A stretch of DNA of 28,657 nt from a virus. The stretch lies in the IMG/VR virus record IMGVR_UViG_3300017773_000092, positions 1 to 28,657 of that record; one strand, written 5' to 3'. Shown here piece by piece: positions 2,347 through 8,947 of this stretch. Each line of letters opens with the position of its first letter. The first letter of the stretch is position 1. The translations under genes and the position numbers were made by a program. The notes below the pieces were generated by a model that was given only the letters and a program-made list of their open reading frames with translations, made no database searches and was not told the origin of the DNA.

Positions 2347-2589
2347 ATGGGAGTATATTTGCACGACGGCGGGGATAACCCTGAAGATAATGATGCGGTT
2401 AGACCCTACCAAATAGAGGTTCTAAATACTGAGTTAGATAAACTTACTGATATGCTATATGAAGTTAGGGAATCTGTCAAACAATGTAGTGAAACTATTA
2501 ACCAGATGGCACGATACATTGCTGATAAGGAAGGAAAGGGTGCAGGTCTAATGTTTGACCTACCCGTACTAAGGAAGGTGAAAGAATGA
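2347..2589 (+). CDS. Small coiled-coil hypothetical protein
   Basis: An 80-aa protein. The first 20 residues are acidic (DGGDNPEDND); residues 20-65 have a heptad pattern of hydrophobic residues (IEVLNTELDKLTDMLYEV), suggesting a coiled coil; the end is basic (LRKVKE). A GGTGA site at 2337-2341 overlaps the previous stop codon. Its own stop overlaps the start of the clamp gene as ATGA. Position between the ATPase and the clamp suggests an accessory replication factor, but there is no recognisable domain. Confidence 0.6.
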   Translation: MGVYLHDGGDNPEDNDAVRPYQIEVLNTELDKLTDMLYEVRESVKQCSETINQMARYIADKEGKGAGLMFDLPVLRKVKE

Positions 2590-3425
2590 AAATAGATACC
2601 CGTTTATTAACAAGTATGCTTAACAGAACAAAAAGAATCCAGAATGTTGGAGGAAAGCCGCAACCGCAGGTAACGGCGTGTGTTTTGGTAGGTTACTCGG
2701 ATAGAGTTACTACTACATCTTTGGTTCGTGACGGTAAAACAAGTCTATCACACTTCGCTATTCCATCGGAGTCTATGGGGCGTGATGCTGTATCTCTACC
2801 TATACCAGATATTGACCGTGTACTAGGTGTTCTAAACTCACATGGGTCACCGGTAAAGATTGAGTACGATGACAATAAACTTCTATTTACATCGGGTAAA
2901 AAGAAAACCCGATTGACTGCATCCCTAAATGGTCTTGCATTCCCGCATTCTCAGGAAACTATTAACGAATGGGGCGTAAAGTCTGAGGAATTGTCAACAA
3001 AGTTTATCTTTGCCGAATCCGGCTTCAAAGGGTATTTGATGTCCGATGGTTCGGTTAGAGAACCATCTTACGAATGGAAGGTTGATGCTAACGAATTGTT
3101 TGAGGCACTACGATGCGACAACATGAATGGCCAGAAACTAAACCGATATACTGTAAGCATTCGTGATTCGGTTATTAGGGTTGGTGTTGGCGAGGAAATG
3201 AAAGGATTTACCGTTGTGGAGTTTGCTAACTCAGAACCAGGATTGGCTGCGCAAAGTTTTGAAATGGATTGGGACTTTGAGGGCGGATTGGATAATGTTC
3301 TCGCTGGTATATCCGGTGACATTACTATACACATTCTTGACTTTACTAAAGAGAAACAGGGTATGCGAATGGTAATCGACCTTGGCGAGCGTGGCTATGT
3401 ATATCAGGCTGGCGTTATTAGATGA
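2586..3425 (+). CDS. DNA sliding clamp, PCNA-like
   Basis: A 279-aa protein, slightly longer than cellular PCNA (about 245-260 aa). It shows the repeating clamp pattern of an alpha helix followed by beta strands. The first half contains SLPIPDIDRVLGVLNS followed by VKIEYDDNKLLFTSGKKKTRL. The second half contains KVDANELFEALRCDN followed by YTVSIRDSVIRVGVG, a ligand-type helix/strand unit typical of PCNA and DnaN domains. The C-terminal MRMVIDLGERGYVYQAGVI matches the final strands. It would encircle DNA and tether the PolB encoded about 2.3 kb downstream. The start overlaps the upstream stop (ATGA), and its own stop overlaps the PLP enzyme start (ATGA). No clamp loader gene is visible in this window; the virus may use host RFC or encode it elsewhere. 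Confidence 0.65.
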   Translation: MKIDTRLLTSMLNRTKRIQNVGGKPQPQVTACVLVGYSDRVTTTSLVRDGKTSLSHFAIPSESMGRDAVSLPIPDIDRVLGVLNSHGSPVKIEYDDNKLLFTSGKKKTRLTASLNGLAFPHSQETINEWGVKSEELSTKFIFAESGFKGYLMSDGSVREPSYEWKVDANELFEALRCDNMNGQKLNRYTVSIRDSVIRVGVGEEMKGFTVVEFANSEPGLAAQSFEMDWDFEGGLDNVLAGISGDITIHILDFTKEKQGMRMVIDLGERGYVYQAGVIR

Positions 3426-4333
3426 GTCTAAACCGAGGCGTTCTAATCAATGGTAGTAACTTAACCCCAGTGGAAACACTGGGTAAGTGTTGGGTAAAGC
3501 GTGAAGATAAAGCGTTCAAAGTAAGTGATAGTGAGCCTAGTGGACTAAAGGTAAGACAGTTTCTTGTTATGGCTGAAGAACAGCCAGACGACCCTATGGT
3601 TGTTGGTTGTGCGTCATATTCAGCAATGCAAATCTATGTTGCTTGGGCGGCAAAAGAGGCTGGTGTTTCGGCGCATATCTTTGTCCCGAGAAGAAAAGAA
3701 AGGACTATGGCTACTCAATATGCAGAATCTATGGGTGCTACTATCCACGAGGTTTTTCCTGGGTATGCTAATGTCTATCGTAAGCGAGCACGAGACTTTG
3801 TTAAGGAAATAGGTGGTTGTGTCCGTTGGGATTCTAAAAGAGCGATTTATGATACCGCCTTACAAACTATAAACCTACCACCCGATGCAAAGAGGATTAT
3901 TGTTCCTACGGGCTCGGGTTTAACAGCAGCCGGTGTAATGGTTGGTCTTGCAATCCTAAAAAGAACCGATGTTGAAGTGGTTGCTGTATGCGTCTCCGAC
4001 CTTGCTGATGAAGAAAACATATATCACAATGCCGACTTTATGGTGGGTGAAATGACCGGTCATTACACCGACCCGATTCTGACCCCCAGAATGCCCGTTC
4101 TGCGTATGGAAAGGGCCGCAGGGGGTTATGACCACTGGGTGTTTAGAACATTGCCCTACGGTGATGTTTTAGACCCATTTTATACTGCAAAGGCGTTTGA
4201 CTATCTTATCGCAGGTGATGTCCTGTGGGTATCTGGGATGAGGCCGGTAGAGGCATGCCCTAAAGAATGGCAGGAATTATATCAGGATTACCAAAAAGAA
4301 TTAAATGACCGCAGTACACCTGTTAGCAACTAA
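3422..4333 (+). CDS. Fold-type II PLP enzyme (ACC deaminase / cysteine desulfhydrase-like)
   Basis: A 303-aa protein of the tryptophan-synthase-beta superfamily. WVKREDKAFKVSD leads into SGLKVRQF, where Lys43 sits where the Schiff-base lysine lies in ACC deaminase and D-cysteine desulfhydrase (GGNKxRKLE). The loop GCASYSAMQ (62-70) corresponds to the SN(H/Q) loop but lacks the conserved Asn. VPTGSGLTAAG (161-171) is the PLP phosphate-binding loop, and FYTAKAFDYLIAGDVLWVSG matches the family's C-terminal end. The gene is translationally coupled to the clamp (ATGA overlap) and sits just before an amino-methyltransferase-like gene. Cellular relatives degrade D-cysteine or ACC. In a virus, fold-type II PLP enzymes have been proposed to build amino-acid-derived DNA base modifications; that role here is inference. 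A metabolic helper role is the alternative. Confidence 0.8.
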   Translation: MSLNRGVLINGSNLTPVETLGKCWVKREDKAFKVSDSEPSGLKVRQFLVMAEEQPDDPMVVGCASYSAMQIYVAWAAKEAGVSAHIFVPRRKERTMATQYAESMGATIHEVFPGYANVYRKRARDFVKEIGGCVRWDSKRAIYDTALQTINLPPDAKRIIVPTGSGLTAAGVMVGLAILKRTDVEVVAVCVSDLADEENIYHNADFMVGEMTGHYTDPILTPRMPVLRMERAAGGYDHWVFRTLPYGDVLDPFYTAKAFDYLIAGDVLWVSGMRPVEACPKEWQELYQDYQKELNDRSTPVSN

Positions 4334-4378
4334 TCTTTATTCGTTCTTATATGGGGCCGAAGAATAGCATAGAACATG

Positions 4379-4390
4379 TTTATATGGTAT
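4379..4390 (+). promoter_or_regulatory. TATA box, leaderless type, of the methyltransferase gene
   Basis: TTTATATGGTAT begins 29 nt before the ATG at 4408, which puts the expected archaeal transcription start at or next to the A of the ATG. There is no Shine-Dalgarno between them. A second similar element (TTATATGGGG, 4347-4356) lies 32 bases upstream. The T-rich stretch at 4331-4349 may terminate the preceding operon. Confidence 0.65.
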
Positions 4391-4407
4391 AACTATTATC
4401 CTATAAC

Positions 4408-5358
4408 ATGGCAAAGAATGTTGATGGGCTCCAACAACGCTTCATGGATAATCCTTTCTCAATAATCAATACCGCTACTGACCGTTGGCAAAGCAGAAAG
4501 CGGGGTTGGATAGCACTCGGTATCGAATCAGAAGTAGGTAGGGATGCACGAGCATTTAATATCAAAGAATGGATGGGTGATACCGAAGATGTTCAGGTAG
4601 CAACCCAAAGTGATACTTCTATCTTTGACCCCGCTCTATGTGAAATACTTTACACATGGTTTGTACCTGAGAAAACTAGGGATTCCCATTCGCCTATTGA
4701 TAGACCCGTAGTTCTCGACCCGTTTGCTGGTGGTTCGGTGCGTGGTATTGTTGCATCCCAGATGGGCTTAGACTATGTGGGTATAGAATTACGCCAAGAA
4801 CAGGTTGATGCTAACCGTATTCAATTTGGTCGTATTGGAGGTAAAGATGGTGCTAATTGCACATGGGTTCAAGGGGATTCGGCAAAGCGTCTACCCCAAC
4901 TTGGTGATGAATACGACATGCTTTTAACATGTCCTCCATATGGTGATTTGGAAGTATATTCCGATGACCCTGCTGATATTAGTAATATGGATGTCGATGG
5001 GTTCGATGAGGCATATGCCGACATAATGGCTAAAGCACTATGTAAGATGCAACCGAATACATTTGCTTGTGTAGTGGTCGGTGACTATCGAGATAAAAAG
5101 GGCTATCTATGTAACTTTGTTTCTAAGACTATTGCCGCATGTGAAGTGCATGGCTTTAGGTTATTCAACGAGATTATCCTACAAAATGTAGTCGGCACAC
5201 TAGCACTTAGGGTGGCCCGTCAATGGGAAACCAATCGCAAGATAGGTAAAATGCACCAGAATGTGTTGGTGTTTTACAACGGTGACCCACGCAAAATGAA
5301 AGACCATTGGCACAAGATGAATGAAGTAGACCAAAAGACGCTGGCGGAGTGGTTGTAA
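4408..5358 (+). CDS. DNA amino-methyltransferase-like protein with CPPY motif
   Basis: A 316-aa Rossmann-fold SAM-dependent enzyme. Motif I is VLDPFAGGS (residues 102-110), followed by the acidic end of strand 2 in YVGIELR. Motif IV is LLTCPPYGDLEVYSDD (172-187), so the catalytic D/N/S of the DPPY motif is a cysteine. VVVGDYRDKKGY and HQNVLVFYNGDP near the C terminus are family-like strands. These motifs place it with phage N4/N6 DNA methylases of the 'DNA methylase / ParB-associated' kind. No separate target recognition domain is obvious. It is monocistronic with its own TATA box and lies between the PLP enzyme and a small HTH protein. It may methylate DNA, or, given the altered motif and the PLP neighbour, transfer or finish another group; the latter is inference. 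No restriction endonuclease gene is adjacent. Confidence 0.75.
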   Translation: MAKNVDGLQQRFMDNPFSIINTATDRWQSRKRGWIALGIESEVGRDARAFNIKEWMGDTEDVQVATQSDTSIFDPALCEILYTWFVPEKTRDSHSPIDRPVVLDPFAGGSVRGIVASQMGLDYVGIELRQEQVDANRIQFGRIGGKDGANCTWVQGDSAKRLPQLGDEYDMLLTCPPYGDLEVYSDDPADISNMDVDGFDEAYADIMAKALCKMQPNTFACVVVGDYRDKKGYLCNFVSKTIAACEVHGFRLFNEIILQNVVGTLALRVARQWETNRKIGKMHQNVLVFYNGDPRKMKDHWHKMNEVDQKTLAEWL

Positions 5359-5365
5359 GCAACTC

Positions 5366-5373
5366 TTTATAGG
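5366..5373 (+). promoter_or_regulatory. TATA box upstream of the HTH gene
   Basis: TTTATAGG begins 30 nt before the ATG at 5396. Unlike the other early genes with this spacing, an AGGTGAT ribosome binding site (5386-5392) is also present just before the start. Confidence 0.5.
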
Positions 5374-5395
5374 CTTAATGTATAAAGGTGATAGC

Positions 5396-5719
5396 ATGGC
5401 AAGGATATTGATTGACATAGGCGAAGATGGTAGTATAGAGGCGGAGTTACCGCAAAGTGTTGCTATTGGTGATGTATTAGAGATTAAAGGTGTAAATGTG
5501 GATGGGGTACAAAACAACTCCGTTCTTTTGATTATTAAAGCATGTATGGTTGAACCTCAGAAACTATACCGTGACGAAGCATGGTTAAGAAACGCATACC
5601 TATCAGACAACAAGACGATGGCAGAACTTGGTGCTATGTTCAATGTATCACCAATGACTATCTGCACATGGTTAGAAAAGTTTGGTGTTGAAACACGAAG
5701 CCGTGGTCGCCGTAGTTAA
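5396..5719 (+). CDS. Small helix-turn-helix DNA-binding protein
   Basis: A 107-aa protein. Residues 1-50 are beta-rich (ARILIDIG, SIEAELP, VLEIKGV, SVLLIIKA), possibly a small barrel. Residues 63-95 form an HTH: WLRNAYLSDNKTMAELGAMF followed by NVSPMTICTWLEKFG, the 'N-x-S-x-x-T-I-x-x-W-L' recognition-helix pattern seen in homing-endonuclease and resolvase-type HTHs. The tail is basic (RSRGRRS). I chose the ATG at 5396 because AGGTGAT lies 4 nt upstream; an in-frame ATG at 5378 would precede that site. It could be an early transcription regulator or a specificity partner for the adjacent methyltransferase. Neither role can be decided from the sequence. Confidence 0.65.
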   Translation: MARILIDIGEDGSIEAELPQSVAIGDVLEIKGVNVDGVQNNSVLLIIKACMVEPQKLYRDEAWLRNAYLSDNKTMAELGAMFNVSPMTICTWLEKFGVETRSRGRRS

Positions 5720-5748: not shown

Positions 5749-5766
5749 GTAGGCATAGTATATTTG

Positions 5767-8043
5767 ATGATAGTAGAGCGGCAGGGCAACCGTAATGTCT
5801 TGGTAAGGCATAGGGATAGTGACGGCGAGCGTAAAGAAACTATGCTTAAAGGTTACTATCCTTTTGGTTACCTATTAGATGAAGATGCTGAACACCTACC
5901 GGCTCTATCCAAAGAATCAGGTTATACTGGTGTATATGGTGAATCGCTAACTAAGGTTACTATGGGTAATCCTGCTGATGTTGGCGATTTGAAAAACCAA
6001 TTCGATAAGACATGGGAATGTAACATACCGTGGACTAATCGTTGCTTATCTCTATACAACCAATCTAATTCCCCAATTGAAAATTACAACCACCGTATCT
6101 GGTATTTGGATATGGAGTGGTCGATGGATAGTGAGCGTATAACCGTCATAAGTGTATATGATAGTTACAAAGAAAAGATGTGGACTTGGGCCGTAGTACC
6201 ACCCGAAGACTTTAATGAAAGCCCGACGACTTTAGATTTCCTTAGATTCAAAGAACATCCCGATTGGCAGAATGGAAGTAAATCAATTTCTGAATACAAA
6301 TACTCACAAGCACCAATTAGATTATTCCAAAACGAAGCCGATATGCTATGGTCTTTCGTTAAACAAATGCAGAAATGTGACCCCGACATTATTACCGGCT
6401 GGAATGTAGTAAATGCAGATTGTAGAGTACTAATTGAAAGATGCCAGGCAAATGGTATAGACCCCAAAAAGATGTGTGGTGGCTCATCCCGCACCATTAG
6501 ATACAATTATAGTGATTGGGCTCAACCTATTGGTGGTCGGTTGGTTATTGATTTGATGCTTGCCGTGTGTAATTTGTGGCAATTAAAGAATGGAGCACTA
6601 CCTAACAAGAAATTAGATACCGTAGCCGACTTGCTGTTAAACGACAAGAAGTTACCGCTTTCCGACGGCCATAACACATATTACTCCGATTTCCATACAT
6701 ACCTTGACTACAACATACAAGATGTAGCACTACTACCTCAATTAAATGAAAAGGTAAATGCTATCAATCACTACCTTGCTATTCAACATATCGTACAATG
6801 TGATATTCAGACAACACCGTTTGTCACTCGGTTATTCACGGTAATGGCTATCAATGATGACAAGTTTAACTATTGCATTCCGTCAAAACCACAATTTCAA
6901 CATGAAGCATATAGTGGTGCTGACATTATGGAACCCGAGCCTGGAGTCTATGAGGGTGTTGCTATCATGGATATTAAGGCTATGTATCACTCTAATGTCA
7001 ATTTGCATAATATATCATGGGAAACGCTCGACGACGACGGTAAGGACTGTGGTAATGGTACTTCGTTTAGCCAAAGCAGATTGGGTTTGTTAGGTCGCCA
7101 AATGGATTACATGACTGTTCTTCGTAATGACTATAAGCGTTTGAAAGCCGGTGCTAAAAGTAAAGCGGAGGAGGATAGATGGGATGCTATGCAGTACGCC
7201 ACTAAATCACTCGTTGCATCTATGTACGGGGCAGCCGGTGATTCTAAGTATGGTTTGTATCATCCGAAAGTAGCCGCCGCCATCACATTTACCTCACGCC
7301 AAACACTATTCCGATTGCGTGACGAGTGCGAATTGCGTGATATGAAGGTAATATACGGACATACTGATTCTGTATTCGTTTTGTGTGATTCCCCCGAATT
7401 GGGCAAAATACATATTGCAAGTATTAACGATGACATGTCTCCTATTATTACGGAGTTTGAAAAGTGGTGTTCGTCTATGCTAATCGTTGCCAAGAATCGT
7501 TATGCCGGTATGACTAAGTGGACTGAGGGCGAATATCACGACCCTAAGTTATATGTCAAAGGCATAGAATTGAAACAAAATAGGCTTCCTGCTATTATGA
7601 AGCGGGTTATGTCGGAAACAATAGAGGGTCTTTTGACCGGTATTAGTGAGGGCCAAATGACTACTAATCTTACTTCGTTAATAACAGGCGTTGTGAAAGG
7701 CGAGGTTGATGGTAAAGACCTGTGCATCAACGCTAAACTATCTAGGAATCTAGAGGAGTATAGTGTGTTGGGCGAATCACGAGCAGGTGCGGCGTGGGCT
7801 AACAAGCACCTCGGAAAGGGTTACCGTAAGGGTAGTAACTTTTTATCCACGCTATCTATTGATGGCTCGTACATAGCATTTTGTGACCCCAAAGAAATAG
7901 AAGGAATAACTACTATTGGGTACAAACACCTAGCCGAGCGATTTATTATTAACAAAGTGCGACCCTATTATCACATTGCATGCTTCGATATGCAACCGCT
8001 AGTAAATGCTCTAAACGGTGTATCAGATGTATCGTGGCTATGA
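5767..8043 (+). CDS. polB: Family B DNA polymerase
   Basis: A 758-aa replicative polymerase, full length and without an intein. The 3'-5' exonuclease motifs are present: Exo I YLDMEW (D115, E117), Exo II NVVNADCRVL (D218) and Exo III YNIQD (Y315, D319). The polymerase motifs are A MDIKAMYHS (D402; usual form DxxSLYP), B KSLVASMYG (K480, with Ala at the usually conserved Asn, residue 484) and C YGHTDS (H532, D534; usually YGDTDS). The thumb motif KGIELKQNR (KGxExxR-like) follows. Both polymerase metal-binding aspartates (D402, D534) and the exonuclease acids are retained, so the enzyme should be active. An in-frame TTG at 5764 is rejected as the start because the ATG at 5767 has the 30-nt TATA spacing. 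It would work with the clamp and SSB-like protein encoded upstream and the primase downstream. Confidence 0.93.
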   Translation: MIVERQGNRNVLVRHRDSDGERKETMLKGYYPFGYLLDEDAEHLPALSKESGYTGVYGESLTKVTMGNPADVGDLKNQFDKTWECNIPWTNRCLSLYNQSNSPIENYNHRIWYLDMEWSMDSERITVISVYDSYKEKMWTWAVVPPEDFNESPTTLDFLRFKEHPDWQNGSKSISEYKYSQAPIRLFQNEADMLWSFVKQMQKCDPDIITGWNVVNADCRVLIERCQANGIDPKKMCGGSSRTIRYNYSDWAQPIGGRLVIDLMLAVCNLWQLKNGALPNKKLDTVADLLLNDKKLPLSDGHNTYYSDFHTYLDYNIQDVALLPQLNEKVNAINHYLAIQHIVQCDIQTTPFVTRLFTVMAINDDKFNYCIPSKPQFQHEAYSGADIMEPEPGVYEGVAIMDIKAMYHSNVNLHNISWETLDDDGKDCGNGTSFSQSRLGLLGRQMDYMTVLRNDYKRLKAGAKSKAEEDRWDAMQYATKSLVASMYGAAGDSKYGLYHPKVAAAITFTSRQTLFRLRDECELRDMKVIYGHTDSVFVLCDSPELGKIHIASINDDMSPIITEFEKWCSSMLIVAKNRYAGMTKWTEGEYHDPKLYVKGIELKQNRLPAIMKRVMSETIEGLLTGISEGQMTTNLTSLITGVVKGEVDGKDLCINAKLSRNLEEYSVLGESRAGAAWANKHLGKGYRKGSNFLSTLSIDGSYIAFCDPKEIEGITTIGYKHLAERFIINKVRPYYHIACFDMQPLVNALNGVSDVSWL

Positions 8044-8089: not shown

Positions 8090-8947
8090 ATGACCCAAAC
8101 CCCAAAACTGACATACAACCCAAAGGAACTCGATAGGGAGTTAAAGATGAGTAAGTCGTCTTTTGTTCTTTTCAATATGTGTCCCCGCAAGTATTGGTGG
8201 AATTACATAGCACTGCCTGACCTTAGGCCACCACCTACCGAGGCTATGAGGCGTGGTACTGCTATACACAAGGCTATGGAACCTATCATCGAAGCACCTA
8301 AAGATACCAAGAAAATAAAGAAGGCAGATGCCTCTATTGTTAAGGAAGGGTTTGGTGGCGATTTTGGTTACGAAATAATGAAGGAATTATTATCCGATTT
8401 AGAGGATAAAATTGGTCCTTGGGAATTATTGCAAGCGGAAATGAAGATGACCGTAAAGGATAAACGCAAGGACATTTGGCTCGTAGGTGCTATTGACGGT
8501 CTACTGCGTACCGAGGATGGAAAGGTTATCCTAGTCGAATTAAAAACAGGTAATATGAATGACGGCAAACTATCCCGTACTAGAAGGGAGTTGGCATTCT
8601 ATACCTATATGCTCAATATGATAGACGAGTGGCCCATGCCTACACATTTCCTATACATTGCTCCAGATGCCGCTAATGAAAAGACATTGGACAAACTAAT
8701 GAAGCAAAAGAAAAAGGTTGTCGGATGTGGTATAACACAGGGTATGTATGTTTTAGAGCCTATATCCGTTCGCACTATTAATGCGTTTCTCAAAGTGTAT
8801 AATAGAACCGTCGATTCACTAAAGGAACGAGATTACCCTATCAATTGGAATGATTACTTTTGCACTCAATACTGCGACTATGTGGTTCAATGTGAACCGG
8901 AGACGCATGGGTTATGCCCCGACCCCACCATCGAGGAGGAGGAATAA
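8090..8947 (+). CDS. Cas4/RecB-like PD-(D/E)XK nuclease with Fe-S cysteines
   Basis: A 285-aa nuclease of the PDDEXK_1 (Cas4/AddB/RecB) group. Motifs in order are: a first cysteine in FNMCPRKYWW (C31); RRGTAIH (H60), the family's conserved histidine motif; VGAIDG (D136); ILVELKTG (E150, K152), the catalytic ExK; and RRELAFYTYML (Y171), matching QxxxY. The C-terminal cluster has C258, C262, C268 and C276. C31 plus three of these could hold a 4Fe-4S cluster as in Cas4. Such proteins resect DNA ends as 5'-3' or 3'-5' exonucleases. In a virus this is most simply recombination or replication-end processing with the Sak4-like ATPase and SSB. No CRISPR array or cas1 is nearby, so an adaptation role is not supported. 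Confidence 0.88.
   Translation: MTQTPKLTYNPKELDRELKMSKSSFVLFNMCPRKYWWNYIALPDLRPPPTEAMRRGTAIHKAMEPIIEAPKDTKKIKKADASIVKEGFGGDFGYEIMKELLSDLEDKIGPWELLQAEMKMTVKDKRKDIWLVGAIDGLLRTEDGKVILVELKTGNMNDGKLSRTRRELAFYTYMLNMIDEWPMPTHFLYIAPDAANEKTLDKLMKQKKKVVGCGITQGMYVLEPISVRTINAFLKVYNRTVDSLKERDYPINWNDYFCTQYCDYVVQCEPETHGLCPDPTIEEEE

Follow-up and report, generated by a model that had tools for sequence, protein, structure and literature searches.

A pyridoxal-phosphate enzyme coupled to a CPPY methyltransferase-fold enzyme in archaeal and bacterial viruses: a candidate DNA-base hypermodification module

Why would a virus keep an enzyme of amino-acid chemistry among its replication genes, next to a protein resembling a DNA methyltransferase? 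The question is raised by a virus fragment of 28.7 kb (IMG/VR record IMGVR_UViG_3300017773_000092; all 28,657 nucleotides are hereafter the window). Its plus strand carries a gene for a 303-residue enzyme of fold type II that depends on pyridoxal phosphate (PLP; 3422-4333, Pfam PALP, PF00291) and then a gene for a 316-residue methyltransferase-fold enzyme (4408-5358), which we call the CPPY enzyme after its catalytic motif and propose to be a DNA-base alkyltransferase. An earlier note, made from the sequence alone, had read these genes and a small helix-turn-helix (HTH) gene as a possible new DNA base-modification cassette at 3422-5719, and all three open reading frames are in place. The cassette is well supported by the co-occurrence, coupling and fusion of its two enzymes; its novelty is not, as the pair is widespread in phages and a version with the S-adenosylmethionine (SAM) decarboxylase SpeD exists as well. 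We regard it as a real, widespread viral DNA-modification module, of the kind of the phage SAM-derived modifications.

Pairing of the two genes across viruses

Relatives of the CPPY enzyme were found in 25 records of named phages with tblastn, and scans with a CPPY alignment (A1) confirmed at least 584 in IMG/VR and 156 stretches in GTDB genomes, 80 loci of each being used; some of the loci surveyed are near-duplicates, and the counts below do not represent independent events. The PLP family is highly divergent, which explains why the single PLP sequence of the window was a nearly empty query against phages, matching Staphylococcus phage Alsa_1 alone; aligned together, the PLP subclades differed too much for a scan, and the alignment was therefore split. 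In Alsa_1 (L009 1891-4651), the distant PLP homologue has a DNA methyltransferase gene a short way off, whose product lacks the CPPYxDLE motif; a few genes separate the two.

In the forward set of 177 loci, obtained mostly with CPPY queries, all but a very few PLP matches lie at the CPPY gene, and the two genes mostly overlap at the CPPY stop. The reverse test, seeded from two PLP alignments (A3 and A4), found a CPPY gene adjacent or fused in 87 of 95 PLP-family loci of IMG/VR, the apparent motif outliers being the variants CPPYWNLE, CPPYHNLE and CPPYGNIE; among the eight loci with no adjacent CPPY gene, two are at contig ends and one (L266) has a CPPY gene some 3.5 kb away. The earlier note had named co-occurrence in relatives as a check on its reading, and the reverse test bears it out.

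The two activities are also found in single proteins. The PLP domain is nested inside the CPPY enzyme in four of them (Pam4, ZS04, R6L and L268), inserted where helix 2 of the CPPY fold leads into strand 3, and in L165 it is joined to the CPPY enzyme as a C-terminal fusion. Helix-to-strand loops of this fold face away from the active site, and the nested fusion therefore argues for joint work and not for a shared site. Among named phages, Pam4 and Erythrobacter phages have a single long protein carrying both domains, and in Vincenzo, a PLP gene annotated as "carboxylate deaminase" overlaps the CPPY gene. Proteins with the PLP domain inside the CPPY domain (L001 5044-7530, L002 2326-4761) are labelled solely as PLP enzyme or solely as DNA methyltransferase, and the PLP gene of Microcystis phage Mae-JY30 (L007 6747-7457) is misannotated as "DNA modification methylase". 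A chance neighbourhood of the two genes is excluded, and we are highly confident that their products work together.

The two enzymes and the SAM decarboxylase clade

The PLP enzyme scores 54.4 bits against Pfam PALP (cut-off 35), and the Schiff-base lysine, K43, is conserved in 109 of 109 family members; R27, D29, the GSG phosphate loop at 164-166, Y254 and K257 are equally invariant, from which we conclude that the PLP site is intact. In its structure model (predicted local distance difference test, pLDDT, 93.9), the nearest solved folds are 1-aminocyclopropane-1-carboxylate (ACC) deaminase and D-cysteine desulfhydrase, with Z-scores of 22-24 (for 1j0a, Z 23.7 and root-mean-square deviation 3.4 over 269 aligned residues). 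A profile of the family retrieves the same enzymes from the PDB, and phmmer with the single window sequence gave no match there. The Pfam score, K43, the glycine-rich phosphate loop and the fold place the protein among the fold-type II PLP enzymes with K43 as the Schiff-base lysine, much as the earlier note had it.

The fold and the weak family matches would also suit the alternative allowed by that note, a metabolic gene of the ACC deaminase or D-cysteine desulfhydrase type with a methyltransferase as its chance neighbour. The curated scores of these enzymes are, however, far from reached (TIGR01275, 27.9 against 289.4 bits; NF010646, 21.1 against 550 bits), and the S-N-H/Q loop, which in both enzymes holds the substrate carboxylate, is lost, reading S67-A68-M69 in the window and mostly G-G-A in relatives. 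The presence of CPPY at 87 of 95 loci and the fusions, across many viruses, reject such a bystander, and we consider it nearly excluded. Most family members are about 230 residues long, against 303 in the window. A larger substrate, other than a free amino acid, would fit.

The CPPY enzyme matches Pfam N6_N4_Mtase (38.7 against a cut-off of 26.7) and PHROG 12517 (E 7e-86). Its motif I, DPFAGGSVRG (104-113), and the Pfam match assign it a methyltransferase fold with a SAM-binding motif; motif IV reads T-C175-PPY, as the earlier note had described for an amino-methyltransferase-like protein, and so departs from the [D/N/S]PP[Y/F/W] of DNA N6-adenine and N4-cytosine amino-methyltransferases. The cysteine replaces D/N/S in 320 of 322 relatives. 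In the structure model (pLDDT 83.5), the nearest solved folds are the tRNA m2G methyltransferases aTrm11 (5e71, Z 17.4), TrmN and Trm14. A ParB-like DNA-partition domain is fused to most CPPY enzymes in relatives and absent from that of the window, and phage CPPY genes are located in replication or packaging regions. In Halovirus HCTV-2 (L005 3554-5782), a ParB-CPPY enzyme is followed by a second methyltransferase gene in the place of PLP or SpeD.

In a separate clade, the partner is another enzyme. A scan seeded with the SpeD-coupled CPPY enzymes of phages P2559S and ZRG1 gave 80 loci (including L276-L355), and in 73 of these, a SAM decarboxylase lies directly downstream of the CPPY gene or overlaps it; in P2559S (L008 5512-7150) and ZRG1 (L010 5524-7366), the two overlap. 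The motif ESHxxxH[TS]xPE and a downstream cysteine are conserved in 60 of 60 distinct SpeD proteins. An E. coli strain deleted for speD regains spermidine when supplied with SpeD of P2559S, which means that this enzyme makes decarboxylated SAM; the authors of that study assigned it to polyamine synthesis (PMC9992855). As further SpeD homologues of phages decarboxylate ornithine or arginine (PMC10407285), the activity holds strictly for P2559S alone. Spermidine synthase was not found in P2559S, ZRG1 or four contigs. With SpeD present and that enzyme absent, the obvious consumer of decarboxylated SAM in phages of the P2559S and ZRG1 type would be the overlapping CPPY enzyme. PLP and SpeD were never seen together in one locus, nor in nine phage records checked, and the window virus, with its PLP enzyme, has no SpeD. 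Directly upstream of the pair in P2559S (L008 4701-5480) is a gene for an ASCH-domain protein, a possible reader of modified bases.

The exchange of partners is mirrored in the SAM pocket. Across 322 labelled CPPY loci, some of them redundant, 111 of 111 PLP-coupled enzymes have a motif I of the form DPFAGGxVRG or DPFCGGxVRG, with R112, and R112 is retained in 130 of 136 partnerless ones. The SpeD-coupled enzymes have D.FAGD[ST][VA]FG, with G109 changed to D and R112 to F, in 75 of 75, a count that is biased for D109 because FAGD belonged to one scan pattern; R112F lay outside the pattern. From its position in the motif, R112 would be near the SAM carboxylate, and a SAM loop that has lost an arginine and acquired an aspartate is what one would expect of selection by a donor without a carboxylate. 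In a tree of 166 CPPY sequences, the SpeD-coupled enzymes form one supported group, which lies within the partnerless ones, and the PLP label requires about 25 changes. We found no alignment column separating PLP-coupled from partnerless enzymes; there is thus no support for a CPPY pocket adapted to a donor made by the PLP enzyme, and the donor seems to be the same with or without PLP, which favours a PLP step after the transfer.

Proposed chemistry and its rivals

In the scheme that we propose, the CPPY enzyme would use the C-gamma side of SAM and not its methyl group, placing a SAM-derived 3-amino-3-carboxypropyl (ACP) or aminopropyl group on a DNA base, with an exocyclic nitrogen as the most likely site. 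The PLP enzyme would then bind the amino group of the transferred moiety as an aldimine and alter it, for example by decarboxylation, deamination or epimerisation; this step probably follows the transfer to DNA, free SAM being the less likely substrate. In the sister clade, SpeD would pretreat the donor by making decarboxylated SAM. By analogy with microcin C and CmoX, CPPY with PLP and SpeD with CPPY are possibly two routes to an amine-bearing base. We lean towards a DNA adduct larger than a methyl group; on the full scheme of a DNA-base hypermodification module, our judgement is evenly divided. Its most detailed form, in which bases of archaeal and bacterial viruses receive aminocarboxypropyl or aminopropyl groups from CPPY, PLP reshapes the base-linked amino acid and, in the archaeal virus, a clamp guides modification behind the replication fork, is a tentative proposal.

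What we observe is that the two genes are conserved, coupled and in places fused, that partners are exchanged, that the pocket covaries with them and what folds the proteins have; the group transferred, the base, the product, the order of steps, the DNA target and the anti-restriction purpose are what we infer. Several points weigh against this scheme. Fold-type II PLP enzymes are not known as decarboxylases. Many CPPY enzymes have neither PLP nor SpeD and could simply methylate. The remaining PLP loci without CPPY, on records of 12-63 kb (including L262-L264), all have PLP genes like that of the window. Those of L262, L263 and L264, at about 3980-4880, are near genes resembling dCTP deaminase or dUTPase, that of L262 also near a phosphoribosyltransferase-like gene, and the PLP substrate in these three may differ from that of the CPPY-paired enzymes.

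If CPPY were a DNA amino-methyltransferase of the usual sort, however odd, and the co-inherited PLP enzyme had a separate job on SAM or an amino acid, such as degrading SAM in counter-defence, one would understand why CPPY matches many methyltransferase models and why it stands alone in the complete phages B054, phiFL3A, HCTV-2 and Funu2. Such a division of labour sits badly with the nested PLP fusion, the strict coupling, the exchange with a SAM decarboxylase and the near-universal catalytic cysteine, and a destroyer of SAM beside a user of SAM would be self-defeating; we consider it unlikely. Alternatively, the PLP enzyme itself might crack SAM to a PLP-bound vinylglycine species and add a C4 unit to the base, in the manner of Mur24 or SbzP, leaving recognition and base flipping to CPPY. 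PLP enzymes that use SAM in this way are known (PMC10491745), and the nested domain would suit the idea. CPPY motif I, however, is intact with or without PLP, and the SpeD clade functions without it. The known SAM-cracking PLP enzymes are also of fold type I, and we regard this explanation as improbable. Finally, the closest folds of the CPPY model being tRNA methyltransferases, the target might be RNA, or protein, in place of DNA; the ParB-like domain of most CPPY enzymes, the position of the genes in phage replication and packaging regions and, in the window, a gene order beside the DNA polymerase argue otherwise, and we judge such a target distinctly improbable.

If the hypermodification scheme is true, it would represent new DNA-modification chemistry, a C3 or C4 transfer from SAM together with a PLP enzyme that works on the DNA base or in support of its modification; such chemistry is known for RNA and natural products, and the literature searched gave no demonstration on DNA. 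It would explain the absence of spermidine synthase from phages that pair SpeD with a "methyltransferase", and it might offer amines by which DNA could be labelled, as well as a new way of evading restriction. The module is accessible in the cultured phages P2559S (Croceibacter) and Vincenzo (Mycobacterium).

Replication setting and known systems

The window comes from a tailed virus of archaea, which plausibly belongs to the magroviruses (PMC10768690) or is close to them. The nearest named relatives of its family B DNA polymerase (PolB; 5764-8043, plus strand; Pfam DNA_pol_B, E 3e-32) are haloarchaeal tailed viruses, and three close relatives were found in IMG/VR (L013, L014 and L017; contigs of 36, 61 and 68 kb). 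All three share the gene order upstream protein, PLP, CPPY, HTH and PolB. Among these close viruses, the ratio of nonsynonymous to synonymous substitution rates is about 0.13-0.27 for the PLP gene and 0.08-0.13 for the CPPY gene, consistent with purifying selection on both. A replication operon, as the earlier note had proposed, is borne out by PolB and an ERCC4 nuclease (Pfam scan) encoded nearby and by a clamp-loader-like AAA protein (RFC small subunit) in the relatives. No restriction endonuclease was recognised among the proteins scanned with Pfam and PHROG in the window, itself a fragment; the PDDEXK_1 protein encoded at 8090-8947 also has its counterpart in the relatives' replication block.

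The coupling of PLP to a sliding clamp gene was claimed as well, and here one half stands: the PLP start codon lies within the stop of the preceding gene (2586-3425, plus strand; ATGA at 3422-3425), an overlap preserved in all three relatives. For the clamp identity of the upstream protein, there was no Pfam match, no PDB profile match to any clamp and no support from tblastn or from hhalign against PCNA, with approximate PCNA sequences as the yardstick; hhalign gave a weak match to the uncharacterised HVTV-1 gp101. Given the replication operon setting, a divergent sliding clamp is nevertheless plausible. The CPPY enzyme ends in QKTLAEWL (5332-5355, plus strand), which resembles a PCNA-interacting (PIP) peptide, that of Pfu PolB being QVGLTSWL, and may function as one. 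All four close viruses have TLAEWL without change, although the residues before it vary; in other CPPY relatives, a single further WL terminus, in L094, looks like chance. CPPY and PolB of the window both end in WL, likewise in all three relatives, which is suggestive of a shared clamp-binding terminus. We hypothesise that modification is coupled to replication: in the archaeal virus, the pair would be expressed with the replisome, and CPPY may ride on a clamp by its C-terminal peptide. On a bacteriophage contig (L260 3950-6760), PLP and CPPY directly precede a likely beta clamp gene, its match slightly below the Pfam cut-off, near a uracil-DNA glycosylase.

The HTH gene (5378-5719, plus strand; 113 residues) has a weak HTH_23 match and hits PHROG HTH/HNH families at about 1e-7. 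It is present as predicted, with orthologues in L013, L014 and L017, but was not found beside CPPY outside these four close viruses and is probably no component of the general module.

Iyer et al. in 2013 are reported to have predicted a class of DNA modification with SAM derivatives in phages, and part of the present module was probably foreseen there, perhaps with SpeD and the ACC-deaminase-like enzyme among the partners. Aminopropylated DNA was not found in the literature searched. Among DNA modifications, the closest system is CmoA/CmoX/CmoY of Synechococcus phage S-B43, which transfers the group of a SAM analogue to phage DNA to make carboxymethylcytosine (PMC12783734). It too has a SAM-modifying enzyme, a methyltransferase-fold transferase of a larger group and later tailoring of that group, and the SpeD-CPPY clade, with its dedicated SAM-modifying partner, is its direct analogue. 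CmoX, however, has a C5 cytosine methyltransferase fold and uses carboxy-SAM (Cx-SAM), whereas CPPY has an amino-methyltransferase-like fold and is paired with either a PLP enzyme or a SAM decarboxylase; no N6 or N4 carboxymethyltransferase was reported by the authors (PMC12783734).

Microcin C offers the combination with PLP: there, the transferase MccD works with the PLP enzyme MccE, ACP transfer being followed by decarboxylation or the reverse, and the PLP enzyme Mur24 uses SAM (PMC10491745). MccD shares with CPPY a methyltransferase fold that serves, or would serve, aminopropyl or ACP transfer beside a PLP partner, but its target is a peptide-nucleotide phosphate and MccE is called a decarboxylase domain, whereas the PLP enzyme of the window has an ACC-deaminase-like type II fold. 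With ACC deaminase and D-cysteine desulfhydrase (1j0a, 4d9c, 1rqx), the latter shares this fold, K43, RxD, the GSG loop and the C-terminal DPxYxxK motif at 19-20% identity, while its family is mostly shorter, has the S-N-H/Q loop replaced and is coupled to CPPY. The CPPY enzyme, in turn, has the Rossmann methyltransferase fold, motif I and the xPPY position in common with the N6-adenine and N4-cytosine amino-methyltransferases and with aTrm11 and TrmN, the order from motif I to IV being that of TrmN, and it differs from the amino-methyltransferases in its catalytic cysteine in place of D/N/S and its frequent fusion to ParB.

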